DNA from: Hydrogenovibrio marinus
GTDB lineage: Bacteria > Pseudomonadota > Gammaproteobacteria > Thiomicrospirales > Thiomicrospiraceae
Direction: 5' to 3'
Length of the DNA: 64,000 bases
NCBI RefSeq assembly: GCF_013340845.1
Contig: NZ_AP020335.1
Coordinates: forward strand, 930,001 to 994,000
Each line of letters starts with the position of its first letter. Positions within the stretch are counted from its first letter, which is position 1. Below, one piece after another: positions 28,211 to 62,513 of the stretch. The notes under the pieces were generated by a model. It was not told the origin of the DNA and did not search any database. It saw only the letters and a program-made list of their open reading frames with translations. Both the position numbers and the translations under genes were made by a program.

Positions 28211-28287
28211 GCGCCCGTAGCTCAATTGGATAGAGTACTCGGCTACGAACCGAGCGGTTAGGGGTTCGACTCCCTTCGGGCGCGCCA
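28211..28287 (+). tRNA. tRNA-Arg (anticodon ACG), prophage integration site
   Basis: The 77-nt cloverleaf has acceptor GCGCCCG/CGGGCGC, discriminator G and CCA. The anticodon stem-loop CTCGG-CTACGAA-CCGAG gives ACG. The 3' part from 28239 onward is duplicated exactly at the right prophage border, so integration reconstituted a complete tRNA gene here. Confidence 0.96.
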
Positions 28288-28289
28288 TT
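28239..28289 (+). repeat. attL, 51-bp core repeat inside tRNA-Arg
   Basis: The 51 bp from the anticodon stem to just past CCA is identical to 58665-58715. Bases outside differ on both sides (C versus A on the left, A versus T on the right). This is the core attachment site of the prophage. Confidence 0.95.
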
Positions 28290-28383: not shown

Positions 28384-29460
28384 CTATTTTGTAGCTTCAA
28401 CCTCTTTCACTTTTCGCATATAAACGGCCTTTGCTTTTTCTGATTTATGGCCTGATTCATTCAGCGCATGATCACTCACACCTTTTGCCTTAATATCATG
28501 AAACGTGAACCGTTTATCTGGATCCTTACTCGCTTTTCCAAGTTTTACTAATTTTGCATACGCTGATCGCCATGCAGATGACCTTGAACTTTTATTGAAT
28601 GGCAACCCATCCTGTGAGATCAATAGATGATTATTTAATGGAACGGCTTTACCTTTGCGCTTCAATTCAGACTGTGTTTTCTTTCTAAGCTTCAGTGCTT
28701 TATCAATGACTGATCGAAGTCGTGGTGTCCATGTTGTCCATTCTGGCAAAGATCCTTTAGTCCTTTGAATGAATATCCCTTTATTGTCATCTATTTTATC
28801 TAGCGTTATATCCCAGGCCTCAAATCCCCTTGCTCGACATAGATAGGTAATCTCTGCAGCAATATTGAGCGGCTTTCCTTCAGTAACTTCAAGCAAGGCT
28901 TCATATTCATCATCTTCAATATATTTTTCACGTGGTTTTTCAGAGTTATGGCGAACGCCTTCACATGGGTTTTTTGTTGCAATGTCTCTTTCGTATGCCC
29001 AATTATAAGCAGCGCTAAGTAATTCAACTTCTCTATTTGCACCAGTTGTGACACCTTGTGAAACCCTAATATCAAGATAAGTTCTTATTGTCCCGGGTGT
29101 AACGATTCCGAAAGGCATCTCACCAAATGTTTTACCATTTGACATTTTCATTTCAGTAATTGTTTTGTAATAGAAACTATATCCATCCCTTGTTGATTGA
29201 GATAATCCTTGAACGTGTGTGCTGTTCAAGTATTTATCTAAAAGAATTTGAATAGTCTTTGATGGCGCCTCTAACATTTCATGAATCATTTCATGAAGGA
29301 CATGACACGGAGTGTCTTCTCGTAGAGGTTTTTTATTTTTTTGAAGCGTTATTTCTTTTCGTGGTTGTCCAGGTATAGAAGGGTAATAAACCCAGCGACC
29401 TTTTCTAAAATAACAGTATTTAGGTGCGCGCTTGCACCGTATCGAAGTTCCATTGCTCAT
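28384..29460 (-). CDS. int: Tyrosine recombinase / phage integrase
   Basis: This 358-residue site-specific recombinase has an N-terminal arm/core-binding part (PSKTIQILLDKYLN, LSQSTRDGYSFYYKTI). The catalytic domain shows the first Arg in LCRARGFEAWDITLDKI, an FHDIKAKGVSDHA box and the C-terminal nucleophile Tyr in AKAVYMRKV. The gene points toward tRNA-Arg and ends about 95 bp from attL, as expected for the enzyme that integrated this prophage. It overlaps the DUF4224 gene by 41 bp. Confidence 0.9.
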   Translation of the reverse strand: MSNGTSIRCKRAPKYCYFRKGRWVYYPSIPGQPRKEITLQKNKKPLREDTPCHVLHEMIHEMLEAPSKTIQILLDKYLNSTHVQGLSQSTRDGYSFYYKTITEMKMSNGKTFGEMPFGIVTPGTIRTYLDIRVSQGVTTGANREVELLSAAYNWAYERDIATKNPCEGVRHNSEKPREKYIEDDEYEALLEVTEGKPLNIAAEITYLCRARGFEAWDITLDKIDDNKGIFIQRTKGSLPEWTTWTPRLRSVIDKALKLRKKTQSELKRKGKAVPLNNHLLISQDGLPFNKSSRSSAWRSAYAKLVKLGKASKDPDKRFTFHDIKAKGVSDHALNESGHKSEKAKAVYMRKVKEVEATK

Positions 29461-37887: not shown

Positions 37888-37955
37888 GTTGGCACCTGTT
37901 TAACTGTTAAGTTAATTCTTTATAAATATTTGATTTTTATCAATTTAATAAGTTT

Positions 37956-38960
37956 TTAAATGGCTTTGTTAAAACTAGAGTTTACAAGCTTATTAAGTAG
38001 TCTTGCGCCATCCGCATGTTTAGAATGAGCAATAAACGCTTTGGTGCGCTTATTGATTTGTTTAGCTTGTTGCTCTGGGTTCTGGTAGTGCTTTTTGATG
38101 AACTTGATGTCGCGTTTGAACTGTACTATTGCGCGTTTTCTCAGTAGCTTATGGGTTGGCCAGATGCGATAGCCAACCATATTCACGCCTTGTGTTGCTC
38201 TATGTATGCTGACTTTTGAGAATTTAAGCTCAAGACTTTCGCTGAGTTTTGAGAGTTCGGCAAAGTAGAGTTGCGCTTCTATCTTTGAGCCAAATATTGC
38301 CACGCAGTCGTCCATGTATCTCAAGTAGCGTTTCACTCGTAAATTGCGCTTTACGTGTTGGTCAATGATATTTCCGACTAGATTCGCCAACCATTGTGAT
38401 AGCAGGTTGCCAACCGGCATGCCGGGTGATGGCACGCTGTCTATGATGTTAAATATTGCTTTTAGCGTAAGTTGGCAGTCGATGCCTTTTGCTGCTACTT
38501 GTTTCAGTATGTCATGATTCAGGCTTTGAAAGTATTTGCTGTAGTCGGTTTTAACTATCCAGATGTTTTCAAGCGATTGGTTTTTTGCCATGCCTTTCAG
38601 CCAGTGTTGAATGCGGGTTGCCGCCTGGTGTGTGCCTTTTCCTTTTCGGCAGGCGTAGGTGTCATCAATCAGTCTTTTATCCCATTGTGCTTCAAGAATA
38701 TTGAGCATGGCATGTTGAACTACTCTATCCCTAAAAGGTGCAGCGAGTATTTGTCTTTTCTTGGGTTCGTAAACTACGAACTCTCGGTATGTGCCTATCT
38801 GGTAAGTGCCGCTTAATAGGTGTAGCTGGATATTACCGAGATTAAGCCAAAGGTTGGCGCCAAATCTTTCTACTTCATTGATGCCGGATTTTCCTTTTCT
38901 GGCTTTTTGGTAGGCGAGTAGTAGGTTATCCCAGTCGGCTATTTGTTCGATAAGTGTCAT
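37956..38960 (-). CDS. Diversity-generating retroelement reverse transcriptase
   Basis: The ATG at 38960 (MTLIEQIADWDN) gives a 334-residue reverse transcriptase. Motifs are PFRDRVVQHAMLN, catalytic Asp139 in KTDYSKYFQSL, GMPVGNLLSQWLANL (VGNLLSQ, the GxxxSQ form found in DGR enzymes in place of QGxxxSP), and the YMDD box at 215-218. A thumb region with Lys/Arg-rich helices ends the protein, and no maturase or endonuclease domain is present. It lies just downstream of the template repeat, as in the Bordetella phage BPP-1 system. It would copy template RNA with adenine-directed errors, together with Avd. Confidence 0.95.
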   Translation of the reverse strand: MTLIEQIADWDNLLLAYQKARKGKSGINEVERFGANLWLNLGNIQLHLLSGTYQIGTYREFVVYEPKKRQILAAPFRDRVVQHAMLNILEAQWDKRLIDDTYACRKGKGTHQAATRIQHWLKGMAKNQSLENIWIVKTDYSKYFQSLNHDILKQVAAKGIDCQLTLKAIFNIIDSVPSPGMPVGNLLSQWLANLVGNIIDQHVKRNLRVKRYLRYMDDCVAIFGSKIEAQLYFAELSKLSESLELKFSKVSIHRATQGVNMVGYRIWPTHKLLRKRAIVQFKRDIKFIKKHYQNPEQQAKQINKRTKAFIAHSKHADGARLLNKLVNSSFNKAI

Positions 38961-39110
38961 TTTATTGCTCTGTAATAGCGCACGGCTTGTGTGGTACATG
39001 CGGTACGCTATCGGTTTTTGATATTTGACCATGTGGCCAGGATGGCATGGCTGATCCATAGGATTCTAGGTAGCCTGTAAAACAAGACTCTCTCTATTAG
39101 ATAATGCATC

Positions 39111-39226
39111 ACTGAAGCCGCGCACACCAACATTGCCATTGGTATTCCAGGCATTGGCATTCAAGTTGAGACAAGCGGAGCCGCAGTGAGCACCCTCATT
39201 CCAATTGCCGCCAGCGATAGCGTAGC
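39111..39226 (-). other. DGR template repeat (TR)
   Basis: This 116-bp noncoding segment is nearly identical (106 of 116 positions) to 39680-39795 in the target gene, offset by 569 bp. All 10 mismatches are T on the plus strand here, which is A on the sense strand: 39134, 39139, 39140, 39145, 39146, 39154, 39155, 39167, 39187, 39218. Read in the target frame it contains eight AAY (Asn) codons, ideal for adenine mutagenesis. The 150 bp to the RT start holds no gene and probably forms part of the template RNA. Confidence 0.96.
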
Positions 39227-39245
39227 TTACGAAACCCATACCATC

Positions 39246-39665
39246 CTATTTCTTCGTTTTTGCCTTGTTAAGCATAGACCTTGATATAGCGGCTAACTGC
39301 CATAATTCACCACCCGGATGTTCATCTGATTTTGGTTGCATGATAGATGCTATATAGCCGCCTTTTATCAACTTATTAGCTGCGCCAATCTCAAGCATAT
39401 CATGCAGTAAATCAATGCTATCAACCAGTGCTGCGCACTTGGTGATGGTCTTTGCTCTCGGCGCTTCTATTGATAGTTTTAAAACTTCATGCATCACTCC
39501 TTCTAATCTTGACACGTACCGATACCTTTGAGCGCGATGCACTCTGTCCAGCATGGGTAGGGTTTTGGTGATTAATCTTTTCGCCAAAGACCTAGTAATT
39601 AAGTCTTGGCTATTTCTTGAAATTTGATGACGACCACTGCCGTGGCCGTCTTGAGATGGCATCAT
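39246..39665 (-). CDS. Avd-like DGR accessory protein
   Basis: The ATG at 39665 overlaps the target-gene stop (ATGA) and gives about 139 residues. The protein is basic and helical (LAKRLITKTLPMLDRVHRAQRYRY, LEGVMHEVLKLSIEAPRAKT, CAALVDSIDLLHDMLEIG), consistent with the four-helix-bundle Avd that forms a pentamer and binds reverse transcriptase and template RNA. It lies exactly between the variable gene and the template repeat, as in BPP-1. An upstream extension of the frame runs through the variable repeat and is not a believable start. Confidence 0.85.
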   Translation of the reverse strand: MMPSQDGHGSGRHQISRNSQDLITRSLAKRLITKTLPMLDRVHRAQRYRYVSRLEGVMHEVLKLSIEAPRAKTITKCAALVDSIDLLHDMLEIGAANKLIKGGYIASIMQPKSDEHPGGELWQLAAISRSMLNKAKTKK

Positions 39666-40714
39666 GCGCGACGGGATCGACTGAAGCCGCGCACACCAAC
39701 ATAGCCAGCGGTAGACCAGGCACCGGCATTCAAGTAGAGACAAGCGGAGCCGCAGCGAGCACCCTCATTCCAATTGCCGCCAGCGAGAGCGTAGCGCCAA
39801 GCGGAGTGGTAAACAGCGCCACGGCCATAAGCAGCATCTTGACCAGTATTAACAACACTGGTATCCCAGTTGTAGGTGCCAACCTGGTCGAAGTTATGGC
39901 AAAGTCTTTCCCAAAGGTTGCCAGAGGTATCGACTATGTTTTGGCAGGAGACTGCCTTTTCAACATAACCGGTAGTGCATGGACCGGTGTTCGATGTCAT
40001 TGACCATGCCAATGTATTATCACCATCATTACCTTGTGGTGCGCCATAAGCGCCGATTTTCCAATCGTCATAAGTCGGCTCAAAGTAGCCGCTGGCACGC
40101 AGCCCTTTATTCAAGTCAGCTTCGCAATATCCACCAGCTGAGCGTACAGGTGTTGCGCCATACACGCTGCCAAACCTAACGTCAGGCCAAGTGCCAGATA
40201 CCACGCTTAAAAGATAAATAGATGCCCAAAGTCCAGGTGCAATCTCTGCCATGCCTTCTGTTAAGCTTTCAGGTCTATGTCCTTCATCCCAAACAGAGTT
40301 TGGTACGATTTCAACCGTTGGCACATAAGCAGTATCAAATCGGTTGGCAATTGGTCGGGTTCGACCGACATGAAAGCCGCCAATCTTTCGCGAATTGGTA
40401 GCATCATATCCAGTAGGGTAGGTTGCATTTTTTGAGCAAACCAATTTTGCATAAGGTGAGCCTGCTGCTTGGCAAGCATAAATGTAAATATCATCACCAA
40501 GTATTACGCCGGAATAAGATGCATCTGTATTGGCAGAATTATATGGGTCAAATGCAGCATCAGCCTGCAAAATATAGCCATAGCCATTACCGCCGATATT
40601 CACCATACCTTCTGGGATGGAGAGTGTGTTATCTGCGTTTTTGGCGATTTGACCTTGTAGGCTGATAAAACCAGCGGCCATCGCTGGGATAATTGAATAA
40701 TCTCCTGATTGCAT
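39662..40714 (-). CDS. DGR-diversified receptor-binding protein with C-type-lectin-like domain
   Basis: This 350-residue protein ends in the variable repeat. The C-terminal half has the FGE-sulfatase/C-type-lectin pattern seen in DGR targets: CQNIVDTSGNLWERLCHNFD, RYALAGGNWNEGARCG and GYVGVRGFSRSRRA. Variable residues, judged from TR/VR differences, are 310, 320, 327, 331, 334, 336 and 338. The N-terminal part (IIPAMAAGFISLQGQ) probably attaches it to the phage tail. It is the last gene of the baseplate/fibre operon, so it most likely recognises the host surface. An ATGA overlap couples it to Avd. Confidence 0.92.
   Translation of the reverse strand: MQSGDYSIIPAMAAGFISLQGQIAKNADNTLSIPEGMVNIGGNGYGYILQADAAFDPYNSANTDASYSGVILGDDIYIYACQAAGSPYAKLVCSKNATYPTGYDATNSRKIGGFHVGRTRPIANRFDTAYVPTVEIVPNSVWDEGHRPESLTEGMAEIAPGLWASIYLLSVVSGTWPDVRFGSVYGATPVRSAGGYCEADLNKGLRASGYFEPTYDDWKIGAYGAPQGNDGDNTLAWSMTSNTGPCTTGYVEKAVSCQNIVDTSGNLWERLCHNFDQVGTYNWDTSVVNTGQDAAYGRGAVYHSAWRYALAGGNWNEGARCGSACLYLNAGAWSTAGYVGVRGFSRSRRA
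39680..39795 (-). other. DGR variable repeat (VR)
   Basis: This is the 116-bp partner of the template repeat at 39111-39226, located at the very 3' end of the target gene. Relative to the template it changes Asn to Tyr (residues 327, 338), Gly (331), Ser (334) and Ala (336), plus His to Arg (320) and Ile to Leu (310). Three template Asn codons are unchanged. The 3' end (on the coding strand) is an invariant GC-rich stretch, as expected for the initiation-of-mutagenic-homing region. Confidence 0.96.
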
Positions 40715-40715
40715 G

Positions 40716-41048
40716 CTATGCCTCCAAGCTGATAATTAAGGATTGAACGTCAGCTACTTGATAGCCAAGGTTGAAAAGTCGTGCAGTAGTGTTCTCTGCA
40801 CGCTTTAATTGCTGACGTGTAGTGACATTGGTTTTCATATCTGTGTTTTCAACGACGATATAATCAGGCTCCGCGCCATCTGGCGACTCAGTATCACCAA
40901 GATTTCTATCAAAGTCATACTGATAGGCGCTCTCGATTAAGCCGTTCAAAAAGTCGATGATTTTCGCCTTTTCAATCGCTGTGCCTGCATTGGCAATAGC
41001 ATTATCAATGTCTTGCTTGGTTTGAAGCATTTTTGGTGTGTTAATCAT
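40716..41048 (-). CDS. Small tail-operon protein upstream of the DGR target
   Basis: This 110-residue helical protein (ends YQVADVQSLIISLEA, Gln/Asn-rich) has no recognised domain. It ends 2 bp before the DGR target start and follows a tail fibre gene by 9 bp. It could be a fibre assembly chaperone or a linker for the receptor-binding protein, but this is inferred from position only. Confidence 0.6.
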   Translation of the reverse strand: MINTPKMLQTKQDIDNAIANAGTAIEKAKIIDFLNGLIESAYQYDFDRNLGDTESPDGAEPDYIVVENTDMKTNVTTRQQLKRAENTTARLFNLGYQVADVQSLIISLEA

Positions 41049-41057
41049 GATGGTTCC

Positions 41058-41663
41058 TTAGATCATTTTGATAGCAGCAACCACGGTATCAACGGTTACG
41101 ATTTTGTGTGTTGCGCTTAGTGGATTTGCAGCATCAATAGCTTGCTTGGTTTTTAAAGGGGTCATTGCCTTTGTATCATTTGACAGATCCGATGCATCTT
41201 GTTGCGTTGCGATTTTCATCACACCGCTAACCGTTTCACTCGCCGGTGGATTTGAAAACGAAGTATCACCAAACGTCAGATTTTTTGCATCCAGTGTTCC
41301 AAGCACAATGTCAACTGCCATATTTAGTGTTCCATCTGCTGACTTTTGCATGATATCGCTTGGTGCTGAGTAAACTGCAAATAGAGTACCACTGTCAGTA
41401 AATACACCAAATTCACTGAAACTATATGCATCTGTTGTCAAGTCTTGAACGGTTACATGAATAGTGTCTGCAGATACAGCTAAACCACTGATACTGTTTA
41501 GACGTTTAAATTCATTTTGAAGTTCTGTTTGTGAAGGATCGCTTGCGTTTGTTCCACTTCCGAAAGCAATTTGTGATAAGACAACAGGACCGGTACCTGT
41601 ATTGTCTGCATTGATGACTTCTGCACGACCTGCATCGGTAATAATTAAACTAATAGCTGACAT
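41058..41663 (-). CDS. Tail fibre protein, P2 H-like N-terminal type
   Basis: This 201-residue protein begins MSAISLIITDAGRAEVINA and continues VLSQIAFGSGT, a pattern seen in the DUF3751-type N-terminal part of contractile-phage fibres. The second half has the collar-like SETVSGVMKIATQQDASDLSND and AMTPLKTKQAID repeats typical of such fibres. It is shorter than P2 gpH, so it is probably a base segment to which the DGR target or its partner attaches. Confidence 0.82.
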   Translation of the reverse strand: MSAISLIITDAGRAEVINADNTGTGPVVLSQIAFGSGTNASDPSQTELQNEFKRLNSISGLAVSADTIHVTVQDLTTDAYSFSEFGVFTDSGTLFAVYSAPSDIMQKSADGTLNMAVDIVLGTLDAKNLTFGDTSFSNPPASETVSGVMKIATQQDASDLSNDTKAMTPLKTKQAIDAANPLSATHKIVTVDTVVAAIKMI

Positions 41664-58664: not shown

Positions 58665-58715
58665 TCGGCTACGAACCGAGCGGTTAGGGGTTCGACTCCC
58701 TTCGGGCGCGCCATT
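58665..58715 (+). repeat. attR, 51-bp duplicate of the tRNA-Arg 3' part
   Basis: This perfect copy of 28239-28289 carries the 3' half of tRNA-Arg (from the anticodon stem through CCA) but no 5' half, so it is not a functional tRNA. It marks the right border of the prophage. Confidence 0.95.
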
Positions 58716-60994: not shown

Positions 60995-61350
60995 GTTTTA
61001 GCCAATGGAAAATATACTTGTTATTACTTTAACTTATTGGTTTTAGTTTAGCAGTAAAACCTTGTCTAGTAGATTAGTGTTACACATTACTTTCAACTTC
61101 TACCAAGTTGTATCTAAAACACGGTCAAACAATTCATCCATTGTTTCATTTGGCATTTGGATGAAGTCAAAGCCGCCACTTTCATTTCTAACCATATATT
61201 CTTTATTAGATAAGGAAGCGTTATTAGCTAGTACCTCATTAGCTATTAGCAAGTAATTAGTAGATGAAATGTTGTTACTAACTGAACTGGTCTAATGGAA
61301 ACGGACACTTCAATGAGAGACAATAGATGTTGTCGAATCTAGGAGTGGTT

Positions 61351-61641
61351 ATGAATCAGAAGCGAGTTTATAAAACTTACACCAAAGAATTTAAACAAGA
61401 AGCGGTCGCGCTTGTCACTGAACAAGGTTATAGCGTTGCTGAAGCGGCGCAAGCGCTAGGCGTTAATCCAAACTTGCTTTACAAGTGGAAAGACAAGCTT
61501 GAAGCGCAAACCAATGGTGCGGCCTTAAGCGATAATGAGCGTGAAGAACTCAAAAAGCTGCGAGCTGAAAACAAGCGGCTTCGAATGGAAAAAGACATTT
61601 TAAAAAAGGCCTCAGCCTTCTTCGCCCGAGAAATGCACTAG
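61351..61641 (+). CDS. IS3-family transposase OrfA
   Basis: The ATG at 61351 behind AGGAG gives about 96 residues (MNQKRVYKTYTKEFKQEAV). It has the helix-turn-helix YSVAEAAQALGVNPNLLYKW and a leucine-zipper-like tail (EELKKLRAENKRLRMEKDILK). OrfA binds the IS ends. The slippery AAAAAAG at 61602-61608 allows -1 frameshifting to make OrfAB. Confidence 0.92.
   Translation: MNQKRVYKTYTKEFKQEAVALVTEQGYSVAEAAQALGVNPNLLYKWKDKLEAQTNGAALSDNEREELKKLRAENKRLRMEKDILKKASAFFAREMH
61602..61608 (+). other. IS programmed -1 frameshift site
   Basis: AAAAAAG lies near the end of orfA where the orfB frame is already open in -1, as in other IS3-family elements. Confidence 0.8.
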
Positions 61642-61661
61642 GATTTGAGTTTATCCATACG

Positions 61662-62513
61662 TTGGCGCAAGAAGGCTACTCGGTTAAATTAAGCTGTAAG
61701 GTGATGAGTTTTAGCCGCTCCGGCTATTACGATTGGATCAAGCGTCCCAAGGCTATTATTACCGAAGAACAACTGCGACTGTATCGGCGAGCTAAAGCCC
61801 TTTTTATAGCCAGTCGAAACAGTCTCGGTTCACGAGAACTGATGAAGCGATTACGTAAAGAAGGCTTTAAGGTTGGGCGCCACAAAGTCATCAAGTTAAT
61901 GGAAATCTTAAACCTAAAGGTTGAACAGCGTGTTGCATTCAAAGTCACCACAAAACGGGACCCAAGCCACGCTGTGGCAGATAACCTTGTGAACATGGAC
62001 TTTAACCCCACAGGCATGAATCAAGTGTGGGCCGGTGATATCACCTATTTAAAAACCGCACAGGGTTGGCTATACCTGAGCGTGGTGATGGACTTGTACT
62101 CACGCCGGATTATCGGTTGGTCAATCAGCCCGCGCATGACCACCGAACTCGTGCTTGAGTCGCTCAAGCAAGCCTACTGGCTTAGAAAGCCGCCCAAAGG
62201 GGTGATCTTCCATAGTGATCGTGGATCACAATACACCAGTGACGCATTTAGAGCGCAGCTGAAACAATTCAAAATCCGAGCCTCAATGGGCGATGTTGGC
62301 GCGTGTTGGGATAATGCCGTGGTTGAAAGGTTCTTTGGCAGTTTAAAGCATGACTGGCTGCTCAAAGTACATCAACCTAACCATGAGCATATGATTGACG
62401 ATGTGAAAGCGTATATGCGTTATTACAACTTAGAAAGGCTTCATACAAGCAATGGTGACATGAGTCCTATTGAATATGAAAATTATAAACGTGATGTGTC
62501 CGAAATTGCTTGA
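61662..62513 (+). CDS. IS3-family transposase OrfB (DDE catalytic part)
   Basis: This 283-residue frame carries the integrase core: first Asp in VWAGDITYLKTAQGWLYL, second in GVIFHSDRGSQYTSD and Glu in NAVVERFFGSLKHDWL. The frame is open upstream to the A6G site, so the active enzyme is an OrfAB fusion. No disruption is visible. Confidence 0.93.
   Translation: MAQEGYSVKLSCKVMSFSRSGYYDWIKRPKAIITEEQLRLYRRAKALFIASRNSLGSRELMKRLRKEGFKVGRHKVIKLMEILNLKVEQRVAFKVTTKRDPSHAVADNLVNMDFNPTGMNQVWAGDITYLKTAQGWLYLSVVMDLYSRRIIGWSISPRMTTELVLESLKQAYWLRKPPKGVIFHSDRGSQYTSDAFRAQLKQFKIRASMGDVGACWDNAVVERFFGSLKHDWLLKVHQPNHEHMIDDVKAYMRYYNLERLHTSNGDMSPIEYENYKRDVSEIA

Follow-up and report, generated by a model that had tools for sequence, protein, structure and literature searches.

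Results and discussion

A predicted diversity-generating retroelement in a prophage tail operon

Does the prophage found in Hydrogenovibrio marinus carry all the parts of a diversity-generating retroelement (DGR), and which phage protein would such an element diversify? We addressed this question in a window of 64,000 nucleotides (contig NZ_AP020335.1, positions 930,001 to 994,000), the numbering of which is used for all coordinates below. A preliminary description of this DNA had recognized a target gene, an Avd-like gene, a template repeat (TR) and a reverse transcriptase (RT), all on the minus strand and in the order known from Bordetella phage BPP-1, and had assigned them to a temperate phage with a contractile tail. 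The order target-Avd-TR-RT indeed agrees with the BPP-1 annotation, and target, Avd, TR, variable repeat (VR) and RT are all present. On the strength of sequence comparisons, we consider it almost certain that this locus represents a complete DGR of the BPP-1/Mtd type, carried in the tail operon of a contractile-tailed phage that is integrated as a prophage.

The prophage is delimited by a perfect 51-bp direct repeat, the att sites, with the left copy at 28239-28289, over the 3' end of a tRNA-Arg(ACG) gene (28211-28287), and the right copy at 58665-58715. These repeats enclose about 30 kb, while the IMG/VR record of the same prophage is longer (35,630 bp). Its gene content includes an integrase (28384-29460), terminase, portal, major head protein, tail sheath, tape measure and baseplate proteins. 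The integrase, tail sheath, baseplate genes and att repeats support the temperate lifestyle and contractile tail that had been proposed. The target gene sits after the baseplate genes and the gene of a short tail-collar fibre protein that consists of the N-terminal domain only (41058-41663, minus strand; PF12571, E 1.2e-7; phrog_15547 and phrog_8443). Beyond the right end of the prophage lies a two-ORF transposase (61327-62513), by its appearance presumably of the IS3 type.

The TR and VR were recovered by a repeat search that had no preference for adenines, at exactly the positions first described, to the base. They form an ungapped direct repeat of 116 nt with 91% identity, both copies on the minus strand: the TR at 39111-39226 and the VR at 39680-39795, within the C-terminal part of the target gene. 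The two copies differ at 10 of 116 positions, and all 10 mismatches fall on the 22 adenines of the TR (A to G four times, A to C three times, and A to T three times). If 10 mismatches were placed randomly among 116 positions, 22 of them adenines, the chance that all would hit adenines is 7.9e-9. The final 23 nt of the VR are identical to the TR, which is an IMH-like feature. In the target frame, the TR adenines occupy 14 codons, eight of which are AAT or AAC, and none of the substitution sets that follow from changing these adenines contains a stop codon, as one would expect of a DGR template. The adenine codons of the VR correspond to residues 308-345 of the 350-aa target. No further copies of the TR or VR were found across the host genome.

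The RT gene (37956-38960, minus strand) encodes a protein of about 334 aa. Its likely start is the ATG at 38960, since the longer ORF (37956-39059) extends upstream into the spacer between TR and RT. GxxxSQ motifs are a mark of RTs of the DGR lineage, and both this variant (GNLLSQ) and the YMDD motif were found where the preliminary description had read them. The RT matched phrog_1423 (E 5.9e-101), and its best match among solved structures was 8ub7 (E 1.2e-55, 192 bits); the top-scoring group II intron RT reached 59 bits. The 8ub7 RT, presumably that of BPP-1, was solved together with Avd. We placed the enzyme in a tree of 39 rows, made up of the window, 33 DGR rows (six of them named records), four group II RTs and the retron Ec86, a flagged long branch. 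The window and the DGR rows fell on one side of a branch with support 100/97, apart from the group II intron RTs and the retron. The sample drew on 27 of the 84 loci L008-L091, and 27 of its 33 DGR rows owed their inclusion to similarity with the window RT or its relatives.

Between the TR and the RT lies a spacer of 150 nt (38961-39110, minus strand), recognized by its position as the counterpart of the BPP-1 spacer RNA. The latter is described as structured, recruiting RT-Avd and serving to prime cDNA synthesis (PMC12875486). Rfam gave no matches over positions 37900-41100, which include this spacer.

The Avd-like gene (39246-39665, minus strand) encodes 138-139 aa, depending on whether it starts at 39665 or at 39662; the start overlaps the stop codon of the target. 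An alternative TTG start at 39743 falls inside the VR and is not a likely one. Although the protein matched NF033474 only weakly (E 1.3e-4, 22.3 bits, below the curated cut-off of 80), all 11 sequences of an Avd profile built without BPP-1 matched this model at E 0.001 or better. Searching with that profile returned Bbp7 (4dwl) first (E 1e-4), followed by Avd (1.2e-3), with the next row at 0.13; Bbp7 is the Avd of BPP-1. By profile, the window's protein appears to be a divergent Avd.

The target is an N-terminally short relative of Mtd

The target gene (39662-40714, minus strand) encodes an Mtd-like variable tail protein of 350 aa. It matched PF21916, the second domain of Mtd (E 7.5e-23), and its residues 61-344 matched the sequence of Mtd in 1yu4 (E 3.9e-10). 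The predicted structure had a pLDDT of 71.5 and a pTM of 0.77, with pLDDT under 50 at residues 300-337, which make up most of the VR part. The C-type lectin fold that had been anticipated for this protein is borne out by the model, for which the strong structural matches were five Mtd structures only (Z 21.8-22.2 over 280-286 residues), the next row being at 7.5.

In this alignment, residues 8-350 of the model lie on Mtd residues 50-380. Because only 7-8 residues precede the part aligned to Mtd 50, the model makes the target an N-terminally shorter relative of Mtd rather than a full Mtd. Nothing in it corresponds to Mtd residues 1-49, and the protein therefore falls short of the full architecture of BPP-1 Mtd. 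We propose that the target binds the receptor. According to a survey of DGRs, most viral targets in DGR clades 1, 4 and 6 are tail proteins, and DGR-encoding viruses are linked to more diverse hosts (Roux et al. 2021, PMC8144416).

Two other readings of the cassette deserve consideration. One of them holds that the RT is of group II intron, retron or antiphage type and that the repeats next to it are coincidental. Generic RT models do match the enzyme (TIGR04416 at 105 bits, against a cut-off of 300, and several DRT models), but the tree places the RT with the DGR enzymes, the mismatches between the repeats are confined to adenines, and the neighbours are Avd and an Mtd-like protein. A group II intron or retron RT with coincidental repeats is contradicted by both tree and repeats, and we give this reading practically no credence. 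The other holds that the DGR diversifies some different variable virion or ligand-binding protein, and not a receptor-binding protein. The same fold class does occur in enzymes, as the formylglycine-generating enzyme and EgtB also matched the model, with Z up to about 7. Mtd nevertheless outscores every other listed structure by a wide margin (Z 22 vs 7.5), and the target gene belongs to a baseplate and tail-fibre operon. We regard a function other than receptor binding as very improbable for this Mtd-like protein.

A putative target-recognition hairpin inside avd

Downstream of the VR by 29 bp, and inside the avd frame, lies a putative target-recognition hairpin (39629-39650, minus strand) with a 9-bp stem, including one G-T pair, and a GGCA loop that follows the GRNA pattern. 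The hairpins of phage DGRs are described as having GC-rich stems of 7-10 bp and GRNA loops, placed 4-34 bp after the VR, and the hairpin of BPP-1 as needed for efficient homing (statements within Guo et al. 2011, PMC3240598). In stem length, loop and distance, the hairpin described here fits the published ranges.

We searched for such hairpins in relatives of the window, the viral ones among which were the best 80 of 531 in an RT alignment search. Their TR/VR pairs came from a finder that favours adenine mismatches by design, and whose counts illustrate, rather than prove, adenine bias; it returned no pair in three of 91 loci. The hairpin count used 80 of the 88 loci with a pair, with L012, L044, L074, L085 and L087 dropped for low score and L042, L046 and L091 for a low adenine share. 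L095 was kept, and its pair, which has a single mismatch, is probably not a true TR/VR. Among these 80 loci, which include the window's own record and near-copies, an unbroken GRNA hairpin followed the VR in 59 and the TR in one, as compared with 21 of 4000 shuffled sequences. When one stem mismatch was allowed, the counts were 61 after the VR and four after the TR.

By the rule used, 21 of the 80 loci displayed no GRNA hairpin, among them the fairly close relatives L015, L016 and L017, in which five pairs (GCCAC-GGCA-GTGGC) are followed by a mismatch. We also compared 15 picked hairpins, one from the window's own record and 14 from relatives; L015-L017, having no unbroken stem of six, were not among them. 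The loops were GGCA in 13 cases and GACA in two, and several stem pairs changed on both sides. As pairing of the first six positions was a condition for picking these hairpins, they are informative only as to how varied the pair types are. A hairpin that follows the VR and is absent after the TR could supply the direction of transfer.

A small conserved gene beside the target

Next to the target is a gene of an unannotated 110-aa protein (40716-41048, minus strand), conserved beside Mtd-like targets and a candidate adaptor or chaperone. We aligned 19 sequences of this protein, the window's included; four of them (L032, L053, L079 and L083) were added by eye on the basis of an N-terminal motif and, being 20-29% identical, are putative homologues. 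None of the 19 had a match better than E 0.019 in Pfam or PHROG. The structural model was of high confidence (pLDDT 89), and a fold search with it gave no match at E 0.001 in PDB or BFVD.

Mtd-like targets of this lineage occur in 64 loci, and in 57 of these the gene adjoins the target, a count that takes one target per locus, the one with the best E-value, and in which nine of the 64 loci come from contigs that also gave profile rows. Additional to these 57 is L131, where the gene lies beside the first of two tandem targets. In a single-sequence search of the phages collection, it was present in Chromohalobacter phage YPCBV-1 only. Among the 35 loci with enough downstream sequence, an RT was present in 27, three had the target and the small gene with no RT in reach, and none had an RT without the 110-aa gene. 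In these neighbourhoods, the presence of the gene tracks that of the target and not that of the retroelement, suggesting that its product is a structural partner or chaperone.

The tandem Mtd-like genes of L131 (5001-7179) share a 382-bp repeat with 37 differences, which, with seven of them at A, show no adenine bias. No RT was found near these genes.

We tentatively propose that the cassette belongs to a lineage of contractile-tailed phages whose Mtd is N-terminally short, in which the 110-aa protein may functionally replace the N-terminal region of Mtd, docking the target to the short collar fibre or else folding it, and in which the hairpin has been written into the avd frame. We hold this to be a possible arrangement rather than a probable one.

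Sister phages retain the footprint of template-to-target copying

Setting aside the strain's own record, the closest relatives among the matches listed were two IMG/VR contigs, 2788499856 (L008) and 3300000558_000429 (L009), which carry the same cassette and neighbours. Their RTs are 70% identical to that of the window and their VR alleles are different, while the two contigs are mutually 92.6% identical over 8.5 kb. The VRs of L008 and L009 differ at six of 25 adenines shared by their TRs and at none of 86 TR-conserved non-adenine sites, a distribution with a probability near 8e-5 by hand arithmetic. Conversely, all five non-adenine differences between the two TRs are mirrored in the VRs. At two further positions, an A is present in one TR only; at one of these the VRs show the difference seen between the TRs, and at the other they are alike. 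Because the VRs change at shared TR adenines and mirror non-adenine changes of the TR, the alignment indicates that template-to-target copying has happened in these phages.

It had been predicted that variation would gather in the VR and spare the TR. In this comparison of two sister phages only, the prediction was right for the adenine sites. Divergence over the whole VR (10.2%) did not exceed that over the remaining target gene (12.1%), the excess being confined to adenine sites. The least diverged of ten segments compared was the TR-RT spacer (4 of 169 nt, 2.4%), which fits the account of a structured spacer RNA in PMC12875486.

Potential activity of the element

The mechanism of such retrohoming is established for BPP-1. 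By analogy, an RNA spanning avd, TR and spacer would be bound by RT and Avd, the spacer would prime reverse transcription, and template adenines would be misread. The mutated cDNA would then replace the VR, helped by the identical 3' ends of VR and TR and by the GRNA hairpin downstream. The outcome would be a phage population with differing tips on its Mtd-like receptor-binding protein.

The element is predicted to be active in this strain at present, and with that to permit host-range switching. A limit on this prediction is that the only other copy of the phage (L007) shows no difference across the 13,005 bases fetched and yielded no second allele. At E 1e-40, the RT was found in the host alone among 62 genomes of the order. 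Weak RT matches (25-28% identity, E 6e-6 to 2e-8) came from three of the 10 other genomes of the genus, and none from the remaining seven. Scans of genome contigs recovered no relatives among 23 stretches in a first round and two distant ones in a second.

The single genome with a single allele, and the restriction of the RT to this host at E 1e-40, would also fit a real DGR that is no longer active in this prophage, in which case the TR/VR differences would be a fossil of past retrohoming. However, the ORFs of the cassette are intact and the RT motifs are kept, the prophage has an integrase along with genes for head and tail, its 51-bp att repeats are perfect, and TR and VR differ at adenines only, with no secondary decay. 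We consider an inactive element unlikely, and favour one that is still capable of diversifying the target.

These findings add an apparently intact prophage to the cases of Mtd-type diversification, together with relatives fit for comparison, of which L008 and L009 supply a clean footprint of template-to-target copying. The conserved 110-aa neighbour is a candidate for mounting on a contractile tail a variable receptor-binding protein that lacks the Mtd N-terminal region.

Comparison with known systems

RTs were reported earlier in P2-like phages (a statement in PMC3091744). In the literature on DGRs in Thiomicrospira, Thiomicrorhabdus and prophages, no paper on this phage was among the matches listed.

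Vibrio phage VP58.5 (Vhmlvirus) resembles the window in its tail sheath, Avd, RT and TR/VR differences (12 of 12 at A, with the adenine-favouring finder). Its RT is 36% identical to that of the window, and its target was not among the seven records matched by the window's target. Chromohalobacter phage YPCBV-1 (OP380511) has baseplate genes, a small hypothetical gene, target, Avd and RT in the same order as the window. The small gene matches the 110-aa gene, the RT and target are 46% and 48% identical to their counterparts, and the TR/VR differences are at A in 14 of 14 cases by the same finder. A plasmid of Ideonella dechloratans (L101, 2867-6266) displays two avd genes and two annotated reverse transcriptase genes in a row, and is possibly a double DGR.

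With the tropism-switching cassette of Bordetella phage BPP-1 (mtd, avd/bbp7, TR, brt), the window shares the gene order, a DGR RT, Avd and an Mtd-type target, as well as a GRNA-loop hairpin and a spacer of similar length. The TR/VR differences of BPP-1, as scored by the adenine-favouring finder, lie at adenines in 17 of 17 cases, as do those of the window. The two systems differ in that their RTs are about 37% identical, that the hairpin is inside avd in the window and before avd in BPP-1, and that the target is preceded by the 110-aa gene in the former, whereas bbp9 (1527 bp) precedes mtd in the latter. The window's phage, moreover, has a contractile tail and a target that lacks the part corresponding to Mtd residues 1-49. 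The cassette itself is a textbook DGR of the BPP-1 kind; the new points, all of them descriptive, are an Mtd lineage that is short at the N terminus, a hairpin located within avd, the footprint in the sister phages and the candidate adaptor protein.
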